Shown here piece after piece: positions 20,019 through 54,473 of a DNA stretch of 64,000 bases. How positions within the stretch are numbered: position 1 is the stretch's first letter; every line of letters starts with the position of its first letter. The stretch covers positions 620,001 through 684,000 of the forward strand of contig NZ_NIUY01000001.1 of assembly GCF_002205795.1 (NCBI RefSeq). The letters are read 5' to 3'. The notes beneath the pieces are model-generated. The model did not search any database and had not been told where the DNA came from. It worked only from the letters and a program-made list of their open reading frames with translations. This stretch comes from Chryseobacterium sp. VAUSW3 (GTDB taxonomy: Bacteria > Bacteroidota > Bacteroidia > Flavobacteriales > Weeksellaceae). A program made the translations under genes and the position numbers.

Positions 20019-20157
20019 ATTTCTTTTGTTTTATTTAATTAAAATTTAAGAAAAAAGGTAGAATGATTACAAAAGAAACTAAAATAGAAATTCTGTTTTA
20101 GCATTTTTTATGGAGGTTGCAATCAGTTCAAATTTTTCCTCATGAAATTATCGTCTG

Positions 20158-50658: not shown

Positions 50659-51345
50659 TTATTCGGCAAATTTCACTACTTCGCTTTCAGAACCGTTTGT
50701 GATTTTCACCAAATACAATCCGTTTCGTGACACATTCAGTTCAATTGGAGTTCCGTTGGCCACTGCTTTGAATGATCTTACAAGTTTCCCCGACATTTCG
50801 TAAACAGAAATTTCAAGATTACCTTTACTGGACGGATAAAGTTTACCTGCGATAACACTGGATTTTTTACCCGTCACAGGATTAGAAACCGCCAAAGTAG
50901 CATCTGTAGTTGTACTGGTAAACCCATAAGTGGTTGCTGCAAGGTCTCCAGACTGTTTCGTTGCGCCATTCTGCTGGTCTTTAAAAACAAAACCTAAATT
51001 ATTAACCATAGTTCCGGAAGGGAAAGTTTTGTTTCCATTGGTAAAAACTTTGGTGTTCAGGTTAATTGTCCCTACATAGGCACCGGCACTGCTGTCCCAA
51101 TTCATCGAGACTGTAGAATTGGTCCACGCATCATCATACACAGTTCCCGTACTGTTGTCTGCGGCATTACTCCACACATGAACCCAAAAAGTTGGAACTT
51201 CGAAACCCGGCTCATAAATCGAATAGTCGTTGGTAGCACCGTAAGTCAGTTTTACAACACCCTGGGAAACAGTCTGCACTGTTAGTTGCGCAGAAAATGC
51301 AGCCGCAGCGCATACTGCTAAAAATAAAGAGGAAAGTTTTTTCAT
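50659..51345 (-). CDS. Small T9SS type A cargo, possible carbohydrate-binding module
   Basis: A 228-residue secreted protein with signal peptide (residues 1-19, AFSAQ). The middle is a beta-sandwich of ~130 residues with FWVHVWSNAADNSTG and NLGFVFKDQQNGATKQSGDL. This resembles starch-binding or Sus-type carbohydrate modules, but that is only a likeness. The C-terminal ~70 residues form a Por sorting domain (GNLEISVYEMSGKLVRSF ... NGLYLVKIT ... VVKFAE). It should be exported by the type IX system. A longer frame from 51384 precedes the signal peptide and was rejected. Confidence 0.85.
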   Translation of the reverse strand: MKKLSSLFLAVCAAAAFSAQLTVQTVSQGVVKLTYGATNDYSIYEPGFEVPTFWVHVWSNAADNSTGTVYDDAWTNSTVSMNWDSSAGAYVGTINLNTKVFTNGNKTFPSGTMVNNLGFVFKDQQNGATKQSGDLAATTYGFTSTTTDATLAVSNPVTGKKSSVIAGKLYPSSKGNLEISVYEMSGKLVRSFKAVANGTPIELNVSRNGLYLVKITNGSESEVVKFAE

Positions 51346-51447: not shown

Positions 51448-53559
51448 CTATTGAAACTTCAGGCTTACACCAAACATAAAATTAACACCTGCCTGAGAAA
51501 AATAAACCGGTCCGTCGTACACATAGCCGTTGTTTACGTATTTTTTATTGAAGATATTGTTGAGCAAAAATTTAAAATCAACATCGGTTTTCTTTAGATT
51601 TAAAGTATATTTTGCATTGAAATCGCTAAGGAAATAATCGTCGAGTTTCAGGCTTTCATTGTTGGTGTTATCTAAAAACTGACTTCCAACATATTGGTTC
51701 TGAATTCCTAAGCTGAATTTTTCAGTCGGATTAAACTGAAGTAACACGTTCGCAATTACCTCCGGAGAAAATGAGATTGGCGTATTTCCAAGCATTTCAA
51801 TGCCGGAAGAAGTCTCGTTTTTAAAATCCTTGTTTTGGTTTTTGCTCAACGTTAAATTTCCTGAGGCGTTCAACTTTTCCGAAAGTTTTGCAATCGCGCC
51901 AAGTTCAATTCCCATTCGATAACTTTGGCCAGAATTTACGCGGATGAATTCTCCCACATTGTTAATCTGTCCGTTCAGTACCAACTGATTTACATAATTC
52001 ATGTAATAAAGGTTTCCTGTGAACGAAACATTTCCCAGCGTCTTTTCAATTCCGGCTTCGAAATCATAAAGTTTTTCTGCTTCGGTTTCAGGATTGGCGA
52101 AAAGATCATCCCGGTTCGGCTCGCGGTGCGCAACGGCCGCGGAAAGGAAAATTTTTCCTGCCGGGATTTTATAATTGATTCCTGCTTTTGGGTTAAAGAA
52201 GGTCCATTTCTTATCGAGATTCACTCCTTCATCATCTCCTTGTTGTACAATTTTGGTGTCGTAACTGATGTTTCTCAGCTGTAGATCTCCGAAAAACTCA
52301 AATCTGTTTTTAGAAACAATAAACTTGGCAAAACCTGCGATTTCGTTTTTCAGCGAGTTGTTTCTGTAATATTCGTGTTCAAAAATCTGTGGGCGGAACA
52401 CATCAGAAACATTCCCAAAATGCCTGCCGTAATATTGGTTTCCAACGATTCCGAAATTCAGATCCAAATTTTCAAACTTTCCGTAAAGCGTAGAAACGGC
52501 TCCGTAAAAATCGTTATCGAGCCATTTTTTACGGATGAAATCGCTGCGTTTGATTTCAGCACCGTTTTCTAAAATATTGGGAAGGTTGTATTTTGAAAAT
52601 TTCGCATCCTGTTTGTAATTTTCGTAATACCCCTTGCCAATGGTATAATGGAAAGTAGTTTCCAGATTCCAGCGGTCACTAAGGTTCTGCTCCCACAACA
52701 GCTGATAATGATTTTGGCGGTAATTGTCGGTTTCGTTATCGTAAAATCCTACGATATTTTCCCAGTTTTGATCATAGATCGCTCCGGAATAATTGAATTT
52801 AGGATTGGTTTCCCAGGTTGTTTTATCAACGCCGTTCCAGGCCTGATAGGTTTTTTCCTTTCCACCAAAAGCCATGAGCCGGATTTTCGTTCTGTTTTCT
52901 TCAAAAAGCCCGGTAAAGTTGTAAGAATTAAGATCAGAAAAAGCCCTGTCGATATACCCATCCGAATGAATATTGGTGTAACGCCCCATCAGAGAAAGTC
53001 TGTCATTCCAGAATTCACCGGAACCTACTTCTGCAGAATATTTATAGGTATTGAAAGAGCCGTAACTGTTATCCGATTTCACATAAAATTTTTCATCCGG
53101 ATTTTTAGAAATCACGTTGACGCTTGCTCCGAACGCCGAAACTCCGTTGGTGGAAGTTCCCACGCCTCGTTGGATCACAATTTGCGATGCAGAACTTGTT
53201 AAGTCCGGAACATTCACAAAAAAGGTTCCCTGAGATTCGGAATCGTTATAAGGCACGCCGTTCAGCATAACATTAATTCCATTGCCGCCGACCCCACGAA
53301 TTCTGAAACCGGTGTATCCAACGCCGTTTCCGGCATCCGAAGTGGAAATAACCGAAGTTTGGTTTTTCAGCAAGATCGGTAGATCCTGACCGAGATTTTT
53401 AATCCCCAAATCCTTTTCAACGTTGATAATTTCTTTGGAAACAGGTAATCTTTTTGTGAAATTCACACTTTCGATTTCGTGAATTTTCAAAGTGTCTTGC
53501 GTCGATTGTGCAAGATAAAACGGGCCTGCGAACAGCCCTAAAATAACAAATCCTTTCAT
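51448..53559 (-). CDS. TonB-dependent receptor, probable thiamine importer
   Basis: A 703-residue outer-membrane receptor: signal peptide, plug domain (NGVGYTGFRIRGVGGNGINVM, VPYNDSESQG, GVGTSTNGVSAFGASVNV) and a 22-strand barrel with a C-terminal VNFMFGVSLKFQ strand. No carboxypeptidase-like N-terminal domain is present, so it is not a SusC type. A TPP riboswitch in the leader marks it as a thiamine-regulated receptor of the OMR1 type, predicted to import thiamine or its precursors with TonB energy. The stop is followed by 60 bp and the small T9SS cargo gene. Confidence 0.93.
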   Translation of the reverse strand: MKGFVILGLFAGPFYLAQSTQDTLKIHEIESVNFTKRLPVSKEIINVEKDLGIKNLGQDLPILLKNQTSVISTSDAGNGVGYTGFRIRGVGGNGINVMLNGVPYNDSESQGTFFVNVPDLTSSASQIVIQRGVGTSTNGVSAFGASVNVISKNPDEKFYVKSDNSYGSFNTYKYSAEVGSGEFWNDRLSLMGRYTNIHSDGYIDRAFSDLNSYNFTGLFEENRTKIRLMAFGGKEKTYQAWNGVDKTTWETNPKFNYSGAIYDQNWENIVGFYDNETDNYRQNHYQLLWEQNLSDRWNLETTFHYTIGKGYYENYKQDAKFSKYNLPNILENGAEIKRSDFIRKKWLDNDFYGAVSTLYGKFENLDLNFGIVGNQYYGRHFGNVSDVFRPQIFEHEYYRNNSLKNEIAGFAKFIVSKNRFEFFGDLQLRNISYDTKIVQQGDDEGVNLDKKWTFFNPKAGINYKIPAGKIFLSAAVAHREPNRDDLFANPETEAEKLYDFEAGIEKTLGNVSFTGNLYYMNYVNQLVLNGQINNVGEFIRVNSGQSYRMGIELGAIAKLSEKLNASGNLTLSKNQNKDFKNETSSGIEMLGNTPISFSPEVIANVLLQFNPTEKFSLGIQNQYVGSQFLDNTNNESLKLDDYFLSDFNAKYTLNLKKTDVDFKFLLNNIFNKKYVNNGYVYDGPVYFSQAGVNFMFGVSLKFQ

Positions 53560-53587
53560 TCTTTTAATTTTTAAGATTAATTGAATA

Positions 53588-53709
53588 AAAGGGGTCGAAA
53601 AAAATTATACAATAAATAGGTCCGCAGACCGCTCCCTAAACAGCATTACCTGTTCCAGGTTCATTGGGTATAATCTCAGCTTTTTACAGCACCCCTTTAA
53701 TTTCAGCGG
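53588..53709 (-). promoter_or_regulatory. TPP riboswitch (THI element) upstream of the TonB receptor
   Basis: The aptamer runs 53709-53629 on the minus strand. P1 is CCGCT/AGCGG. P2 is GGGGT with ACCC, and the THI-box pieces GCTGAGA, ACCC, TGAACCTG, CAGGTAATGCTG and TAGGGA are all present in order. Downstream, ACCCCTTT (53595-53588) is perfectly complementary to AAAGGGGT (53698-53691) of the P2 5' arm, an evident alternative structure 28 nt before the start codon. Thiamine pyrophosphate should shut expression off. Confidence 0.93.
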
Positions 53710-53729
53710 CGAAAGTACAAAATTTTTAA

Positions 53730-54473
53730 TTAATAACGAATATTATTGGAATCTACGTAATAATAATTTTTCCCGTCTTTGGTCACTTCAAAAAGCCGCG
53801 CAAGCTTCCAGCTGAAATTTCTTTTGATGTCGCTGTATTCGAAAGGGATCACCACTTTATTATTGATGTCGATTACCCCAAATTTATTTTTGTGCGACGC
53901 AATAATCATTGGATTTTTGAGATCATCACCTTCCAGAATATGCAGATAATCGTATTGAGGATAGATTGTAAACTGTCGGTAATCCCCGGGATTTTCAAAT
54001 TTAGAATCTTCGATAATTCCATAGGCGTGATTCATAACGTAGGCATGAAAAAGCTGTGCTTTAAATTCAGGCGTACATTGTCCGAGATCAGTTTTTTTGA
54101 ACTGATAGACACGGATTCCGGCCTGATTGATACGGAAATCCTGACCGTTTAAACGAACAGAGGCATATTTGGAAGAGCCGAATTTCTTCACCTTTGGATT
54201 GGGAGAATTCAGCAGATTGCAGTCTTCTGTAAAAAATCCGACATTGCTGTACTCAGGTTTAATAATGGTTTTGCCTTTTTGATTAACAAATCCGAATTTC
54301 CCGTTGATCTTATGTGGAATCAGGGCAGGAATCGAATCATTGATTTTAACGAGATCGGTATTGACCTTTGCAGAAACTGTTTTTGTAACCGTTTTCTTTT
54401 TAGCGACATTGTGTTTCTGACCAGATAAGATCAGGGCGAAGCTGATTAAAATCAAACTTAAAACGTTCTTCAT
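53730..54473 (-). CDS. WG-repeat protein, secreted
   Basis: A 247-residue protein with a signal peptide (about residues 1-18, LILSGQ). It carries WG/KWG-type repeats (INGKFGFVNQKGKTIIKPEY near residue 57 and KNKFGVIDINNKVVIPFEY near 195), forming strands of a putative beta-propeller-like or repeat surface. The central part is less regular. WG-repeat proteins have been linked to binding roles, but the function here is unknown. It lies upstream of the TPP riboswitch, on the same strand. Confidence 0.85.
   Translation of the reverse strand: MKNVLSLILISFALILSGQKHNVAKKKTVTKTVSAKVNTDLVKINDSIPALIPHKINGKFGFVNQKGKTIIKPEYSNVGFFTEDCNLLNSPNPKVKKFGSSKYASVRLNGQDFRINQAGIRVYQFKKTDLGQCTPEFKAQLFHAYVMNHAYGIIEDSKFENPGDYRQFTIYPQYDYLHILEGDDLKNPMIIASHKNKFGVIDINNKVVIPFEYSDIKRNFSWKLARLFEVTKDGKNYYYVDSNNIRY

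Follow-up and report, generated by a model that had tools for sequence, protein, structure and literature searches.

A compact TPP-type aptamer without the pyrophosphate loop in front of TonB-dependent receptor genes of Flavobacteriales, a predicted translational off switch

The window analyzed here, i.e., the whole stretch of 64,000 nucleotides from Chryseobacterium sp. VAUSW3, carries a TonB-dependent receptor gene behind a TPP-type aptamer of compact form, in which the pyrophosphate-sensing J4/5-J5/4 loop is gone and P4-P5 is nearly a single helix. We predict, with moderate confidence, that this TPP-derived aptamer acts as a translational off switch of the receptor mRNA. The compact form has changed repeatedly, is tied to receptors and lacks the pyrophosphate site, which makes it, as far as sequence comparison goes, a strong candidate for a changed ligand specificity. 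Papers are cited by their PMC identifiers and from excerpts of their text.

The aptamer in front of the receptor gene

The whole element and the receptor gene lie on the minus strand. The features referred to below are the following (coordinates of the window):

53710 to 53717, minus strand: -7 promoter box TACTTTCG, consensus TAnnTTTG
53616 to 53706, minus strand: TPP-type aptamer, compact form (RF00059 cmscan match, below the gathering score)
53691 to 53698, minus strand: strand A, AAAGGGGT, the P2 5' arm (GGGGT) plus AAA (from the sequence)
53674 to 53679, minus strand: CTGAGA, the J3/2 core of the pyrimidine sensor, intact (sequence and covariance-model alignment)
53635 to 53659, minus strand: compact P4-P5 arm, CCT-G-GAACAG-GTAATG-CTGTTT-AGG (arm parser and covariance-model alignment)
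53619 to 53630, minus strand: spacer hairpin GGTC-TGCG-GACC, 4 bp with a UNCG-type loop, lineage-specific
53583 to 53595, minus strand: strand B, ACCCCTTTTATTC, with a part ACCCCTTT that pairs with A and a part CCTTTTATTC that pairs with C
53552 to 53561, minus strand: strand C, GAATGAAAGG, the start codon (53559-53557) with codons 2 and 3
51448 to 53559, minus strand: TonB-dependent receptor, 703 aa, predicted thiamine receptor (OMthi-like)
50659 to 51345, minus strand: small protein with a T9SS C-terminal sorting domain (PF18962/TIGR04183), directly behind the receptor

The cmscan match to RF00059 (53706-53616, minus strand) has an E value of 5.7e-7 and covers model positions 1 to 105, the full length, in the covariance-model alignment. 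Its score of 41.7 bits is below the Rfam gathering score of 54.3, and the aptamer is missing from the cmscan list at the gathering threshold; the Rfam search proposed in the initial annotation thus came out positive by E value and length and short by score. At E 0.001, the genome (2.63 Mb, 99.96% complete) contains no other TPP-type match. The THI-box segments seen are GGGGUG, CUGAGA, ACCC, and GAACC...AGGGA, and the pyrimidine sensor P2-P3 is intact, with CUGAGA and ACCC found both in the sequence and in the covariance-model alignment. All THI-box segments had been annotated as present; most are, but the conserved CG of J5/4 is missing. The assignment to a TPP-family riboswitch before a TonB receptor is supported by the RF00059 match and by the receptor-linked aptamers of relatives. 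Elsewhere in the window, an ordinary SAM-II riboswitch (20088-20147, minus strand, 63.5 bits) precedes an ORF (20018-18738, minus strand) recognized by eye as S-adenosylmethionine synthetase.

The receptor and the supply of thiamine

The receptor has a Plug domain (PF07715, E 3.6e-7) and a weak similarity to TonB-B12, and its nearest titled relatives come from Kaistella and Chryseobacterium records, with up to 88% identity; the search against PDB gave no chain at E 0.001. Homologs stand behind TPP-type aptamers in other Bacteroidia as well. By homology and context, in analogy to OMthi of Bacteroides (PMC5613172, in excerpt), the receptor is predicted to import thiamine. The small T9SS protein, with a homolog in 13 of 80 receptor loci, is possibly cotranscribed with the receptor and is a possible candidate for a thiamine-binding surface partner.

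None of the 36 genomes of the window's genus encodes ThiC, and all 36 encode thiamine pyrophosphokinase (TPK) and a permease of the PnuC/PnuT family, within which the family search cannot separate PnuT from PnuC; neither gene is adjacent to the receptor in the window's genome. A ThiE-family protein was over the cut-off in a single genome of the 36. At E 0.001 there were nine, of which eight, including that of the window's genome, were weak (20 to 22 bits, where the cut-off is 27) and left uncounted. With no ThiC, with TPK and the permease, and with ThiE in one genome, the genus most likely needs imported thiamine.

A helix in place of the pyrophosphate loop

Both the covariance-model alignment and the arm parser find the CG of J5/4 (C77 and G78) absent from the window aptamer. 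In canonical form, for example in the aptamers that precede thiS in genus g2 (probably Chryseobacterium), the arm reads CCU-GAU-P5-CGU-AGG, and that of the window reads CCU-G-GAACAG-GUAAUG-CUGUUU-AGG. G60, C77 and G78 contact one of the metal ions coordinating the pyrophosphate, and direct contact with the pyrophosphate is made by G78 alone among the three (PMC3764141, in excerpt).

Compact arms were collected with a pattern that fixes the loop and P4, so that only P5 and the junction letters were free to vary in the covariation analysis, from which L182, L194 and L195 were left out. In the 6+6 form (30 distinct arms), 97.9% of the pair cells were standard, two-sided changes occurred in six of the eight pairs, and the covariation score was 0.556, whereas shuffled controls gave 0.194 and slid ones no more than 0.187. 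This set supersedes an earlier one of 22 hand-picked arms (98.9% paired, score 0.601), to which it adds less well fitting arms. The pair adjacent to the junction exchanges freely (AU 9, GC 9, CG 5, GU 4, other 3; n = 30), a G lies on the 5' side between P4 and P5 in 29 of the 30 arms, and an A faces it in 28. The 7+6 form, to which the window belongs, varies less (15 distinct arms): every cell is paired (100%), two-sided changes occurred in three of nine pairs, and the score was 0.170 (shuffled, 0.079; slid, 0.089 at most). Covariation thus points to the compact P4-P5 as a helix under selection. The P3 segment is also shorter in the compact forms (median 11.5 versus 15 nt in 38 and 21 pattern-fitting aptamers, respectively). 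As an alternative fold, a CCUG-GAA-CAGG hairpin inside the P4-P5 arm was discarded; it exists in the window and not in the GGGCAG-type relatives.

Distribution of compact and CG-keeping aptamers

The comparison covered 37 Flavobacteriales genomes picked from 294, mostly one per genus (order and genus names of some genomes were inferred from named relatives), and all of their 72 TPP-type matches were fetched. An aptamer counted as receptor-linked if tblastn (E 1e-5) found a homolog of the window's receptor encoded behind it. Receptor-linked aptamers, one per genome, lacked the CG in 37/37 genomes, and 36 of these 37 score under the Rfam cut-off. Of the other 35 TPP aptamers in the same genomes, which precede genes identified by eye from their first residues (thiS, thiM, pnuT-like and others), 31 keep the CG (26 by the parser and five by eye) and four do not; the parser failed in seven, read by eye as five with and two without CG. 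Twenty-six of the 37 genomes contain both kinds. A Fisher test of the link between compact form and receptor gives p = 2.4e-16, a value that ignores kinship and is not usable as a probability. Among 80 receptor loci from titled records, 75 are without CG, two (L104 and L109, both outside Flavobacteriales by title) keep it and three were unparsed, two of which are compact by eye and one of which is a contig starting inside the receptor. Canonical TPP aptamers were also seen before a protein of ca. 240 aa with a motif like WQGRKEWFFNR (L153, L155, L157, L159, L163, and L165).

In other Bacteroidia, the CG is kept in 19 of the 21 receptor-linked aptamers among the 40 matches fetched out of 65 listed. 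The 25 dropped matches comprise three of G000/G037 (covered otherwise), two of G039 (same family) and 20 others, 14 of which are under the cut-off; one dropped genome, G367, has a compact aptamer. Parser failures here (3/21 receptor-linked and 1/19 other aptamers) were read as CG. One further non-receptor aptamer, L222, is without CG.

Across the phylum, the compact-form pattern gave 63 matches in 63 of 392 genomes, and its reversed version gave none among the matches listed for the same 392 genomes. Thirty of the 63 loci were returned, six of them repeating loci already in the set, and 29 of the 30 precede a receptor homolog. The compact form occurs outside the order in at least seven genomes (G343, G367, G400, G422, G504, G582, and G645). 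L255 was the only compact aptamer of the 30 that is not before a receptor, and its next ORF resembles, by eye, a THI4-type thiazole synthase. Within the window's genus, a TPP-type match is found in 36/36 genomes, over the cut-off in one and with none over it in the other 35. That one is a second aptamer, in G025, with the CG kept; some 1.8 kb behind it there is a gene of the ThiE family.

On the receptor tree, the compact/CG label needs 10 changes, against 19.6 in shuffles, and at least four are forced by the starred branches. This is a quick tree of 117 rows with long-branch warnings, for which L031 to L084 were thinned to one in six, and six repeats as well as short rows were dropped. Such numbers of changes indicate that the compact form arose or was lost repeatedly.

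A different kind of element was seen in L174, L182, L194, and L195 (G100, G305, and G151, all of the window's order), stand-alone TPP-like RNAs without the CG of J5/4. A terminator-like hairpin and a T run follow directly, and the next large mechanical ORF is convergent in 4/4. BLAST with the L182 RNA gave matches in 10 of the 294 genomes, covering most of the RNA in G305, G151, G100, G230, and G244 and only a core of 37 to 45 nt in the other five. These could be small RNAs sensing the ligand.

Two readings of the ligand

Since the pyrimidine pocket is kept and the pyrophosphate loop is replaced by a helix, a thiamine or other non-pyrophosphate (or pyrophosphate-independent) form would be expected as ligand. 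We consider this about equally likely as unchanged TPP binding by other contacts. The gene-wise split of the two aptamer kinds within one genome speaks for a different ligand, and the THI4-like gene behind L255 speaks for TPP. 

An ordinary TPP riboswitch, with the same switch mechanism and a compact arm that still binds TPP, is accordingly a serious possibility; metal-bridged backbone contacts or the conserved G.A mismatch might then take the place of C77 and G78. The pyrimidine sensor and the L5 loop are indeed kept and the family match is clear, but G78, which touches the pyrophosphate, is gone, with a freely exchanging pair near its place. The G between P4 and P5 (29/30) and its facing A (28/30) in the 6+6 arms would suit such a replacement, TPP would be a natural signal given TPK in all 36 genomes of the genus, and the compact aptamer before the THI4-like gene fits TPP; against this, the other TPP aptamers of the same genomes retain the CG in 31 of 35 cases. 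With about as much hesitation, we propose that the compact form may be a separate class, sensing free thiamine or another pyrimidine-bearing, non-pyrophosphate form, that evolved more than once from receptor-linked TPP riboswitches. De novo synthesis is not known to pass through free thiamine, and a thiamine sensor would therefore report import alone.

Predicted strand exchange at the start codon

Two pairings compete for a short stretch of the leader. Strand A (AAAGGGGU) contains the P2 5' arm, whose partner within the aptamer is ACCC (53669-53666), and strand B (ACCCCUUUUAUUC) spans positions -36 to -24 relative to the start codon. As initially annotated, the P2 arm is perfectly complementary to a segment near the receptor start: AAAGGGGT (53698-53691) and ACCCCTTT (53595-53588) form 8 bp with -10.9 kcal/mol. 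The best duplex between arm and leader (-11.8 kcal/mol, where 100 shuffled leaders average -7.4) has a p of 0.04 for the window alone. The initial annotation had deduced a simple on/off switch in which this 3' copy competes with the bound fold; the alternative P2 pairing is there, and conserved in many relatives, but a second partner had been missed. Strand B also pairs, through CCUUUUAUUC, with GAAUGAAAGG of strand C, giving a 10-bp hairpin of -11.4 kcal/mol with the AUG inside. Both A:B and B:C use the CCUUU of strand B and are therefore mutually exclusive at full length.

With the aptamer enforced, the unpaired probability of the AUG is 0.002, and opening positions -3 to +6 costs 8.1 kcal/mol; with A:B enforced, the values are 0.38 and 2.1 kcal/mol. 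The unconstrained leader gives 0.13. The receptor start is the most hidden of the 43 mechanical ORFs of the window (0.002 versus a median of 0.61; last 45 and first 12 nt folded, ORFs of ≥180 aa, a mechanical set with spurious ones included). The enforced states have -39.9 (A:B) and -37.0 kcal/mol (aptamer, the energy of the ligand not included), and the free minimum fold, at -41.0 kcal/mol, has the start hairpin and neither P2 nor the whole A:B, so the calculation alone does not show a switch. In a shorter stretch, the minimum fold consists of A:B and a 6-bp start hairpin.

In the model that we propose, binding of the ligand, a thiamine compound, would lock GGGGU in P2 and leave strand B free; CCUUUUAUUC and GAAUGAAAGG would then pair, the start codon would be buried and little receptor would be made. 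When the ligand is scarce, ACCCCUUU of strand B would pair with AAAGGGGU of the aptamer and break P2, shortening the start hairpin and admitting ribosomes. The output would thus be masking of the start codon itself. Flavobacteria lack Shine-Dalgarno sequences (PMC9723704, in excerpt), and such masking would suit a phylum in which translation start does not rely on them. In Bacteroides thetaiotaomicron, the mRNA of the OMthi and PnuT operons showed no significant change with thiamine, whereas that of the biosynthesis operon does change (PMC5613172, in excerpt). Translational control would explain the unchanged OMthi and PnuT mRNA.

Conservation of the competing pairings

In 108 compact leaders, with start codons assigned by a rule that was wrong or doubtful for several (including L094, L184, and L208), the median unpaired probability of the start is 0.002, against 0.43 in dinucleotide shuffles. 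It is below 0.1 in 85, and p is ≤0.05 in 74. The initial annotation had made conservation in related genomes a point to check, and A:B is largely kept (p ≤ 0.05 in 79/108). Among the 39 nonredundant leaders (<60% positional identity), the start is below 0.1 in 22, with p ≤ 0.05 in 15, and A:B has p ≤ 0.05 in 23. Native B:C duplexes of these 39 are more stable than cross-species swaps (-9.21 versus -5.79 kcal/mol, Wilcoxon p 1.3e-6); the starts of L192 and L200 were corrected in this comparison and not in the other leader statistics, and L202 was dropped for its short leader. The start hairpin is rebuilt with other letters in Flavobacterium (L093, GUAA/UUAC) and Gelidibacter (L092, CGAUUA/UAAUCG).

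The start is open (≥0.1) in 23 of the 108, some through doubtful start calls, and these include L085, L086, L089, L090, L091, L095, L098, L102, and L108. Thus, the competing pairings with the aptamer and the start codon appear to be conserved in relatives, not in every clade. Canonical receptor leaders, mostly of other orders, have the start below 0.1 in only 4/18 (A:B p ≤ 0.05 in 7/18), and for this reason the model is not extended to them.

Two further arrangements were noticed. In L092, L096, L197, and L201 (Gelidibacter, Winogradskyella, and two others), strand B is immediately preceded by an extra strand, AGAAUAA, that complements UUAUUC of B and looks like the start strand GAAUGA, so that a third competing hairpin may form. 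In the thiS leaders of genus g2 (L114, L117, L115, and similar ones), inspection by eye shows AUUCCUAAA pairing with UUUAGGAAUG at the start, and CCUAAAG as the complement of CUUUAGG of the aptamer 5' arm. The canonical biosynthesis aptamers of this genus seem to follow the same logic with other letters.

Promoter box, P1, and the spacer hairpin

The -7 box, TACTTTCG (53717-53710), follows the consensus TAnnTTTG (PMC9723704, in excerpt) and ends 14 nt before GGGG. TAnnTTYG stands 12 to 16 nt before GGGG in 48 of 52 leaders (the window and 51 of L031 to L084), and 98 of 109 compact leaders have a -7 box no more than 40 nt away. We infer a transcript start a few bases past the box, at about 53702-53706. 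From the box position, the RNA is expected to start at or after the P1 5' arm, which renders P1 doubtful and probably absent. P1 was also rejected as a competitor, since the promoter box occupies the place of its 5' arm.

The GGTC/GACC hairpin described earlier does exist (53630-53619, 4 bp), but its supposed overlap with the P1 3' arm loses its meaning with P1 itself in doubt. Hairpins with UNCG-type loops and changing stems occupy the same place in only 7 of 52 near-relative leaders, which speaks against a role in the switch; in the others, the linkers differ and are often longer. It was therefore rejected as switch element or terminator, being also uncalled by the terminator scan, and we regard it as a probable spacer.

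Transcription attenuation, with a terminator favored by the ligand-bound fold and A:B as the antiterminator, is improbable. The terminator could be this hairpin with the U-rich stretch that follows, where a run of seven U is present downstream, but the gap between them is 14 nt and the hairpin is as rare, and as invisible to the scan, as stated. Alternatively, it could be either of two terminator-like sites scanned in the leader and the coding start (two on the minus strand of 53500-53800, against 0.2 in shuffles), one within the P4-P5 arm (53660-53648), the other in the coding sequence (53538-53522), both unlikely to be real terminators. Moreover, attenuation leaves the conserved start-codon hairpin unexplained. 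Slightly less probable still is a decayed, nonbinding riboswitch whose start hairpin keeps expression constantly low or responds to temperature or a protein. The subthreshold score and lost key residues would fit it, but covariation of the compact helix, repeated changes on the tree and 37/37 receptors stand against it, all pointing to selection on the aptamer.

Relation to known systems

The compact form shares with RF00059 and E. coli thiM the P2-P3-J3/2 part (CUGAGA), P4, P5, the UAAU loop L5, the order of segments and, in its predicted role, the control of thiamine genes. It differs in that J4/5-J5/4, GAU/CGU in canonical aptamers of the same order, is reduced to G/A, a single bulge or none, that P1 is probably missing and that it mostly scores under the Rfam cut-off. 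Variant riboswitch classes with altered ligand specificity exist, and, as in these, residues that contact the ligand have been lost in a subset of a known aptamer family that is tied to particular genes; none of TPP type was described in the full-text literature searched. The HMP-PP (thiS motif) riboswitch likewise senses a compound of the thiamine pathway other than TPP, but its aptamer is of another kind and terminator-embedded (PMC6478431, in excerpt).

That a TPP riboswitch precedes a BtuB-like receptor is already known (PMC2211319 and PMC5613172, in excerpt): a THI-element precedes omr, a btuB homolog (PMC2211319), and a TPP-type aptamer precedes the BtuB-like TonB receptor OMthi (BT2390) of Bacteroides (PMC5613172). 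The arrangement in the window is alike, but receptor aptamers of other orders mostly keep the CG (19/21 of those fetched), and the predicted strand exchange at the start codon, seen in Flavobacteriales, is weak outside them (the 4/18 above). The mode of action of TPP riboswitches in Bacteroidetes was called uncertain in 2017 (PMC5613172, in excerpt), and, by its title as given in the reference list of PMC7366714, a preprint of Costliow et al. (2019) has Bacteroides TPP riboswitches control transcription or translation. No aptamer form that lacks the pyrophosphate loop is described in the full-text literature searched; the compact form is new as far as that literature goes, and priority is not certain.

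What the analysis offers is a concrete model of strand exchange with the start codon as its target, in a phylum without Shine-Dalgarno dependence. If the compact aptamers do sense thiamine, the canonical TPP aptamers of the same cell would report the finished cofactor and the compact ones import. Compact aptamers are mostly invisible at the Rfam threshold, and a widespread family of bacterial vitamin sensors, which may respond to a different form of the vitamin, may thus be overlooked.
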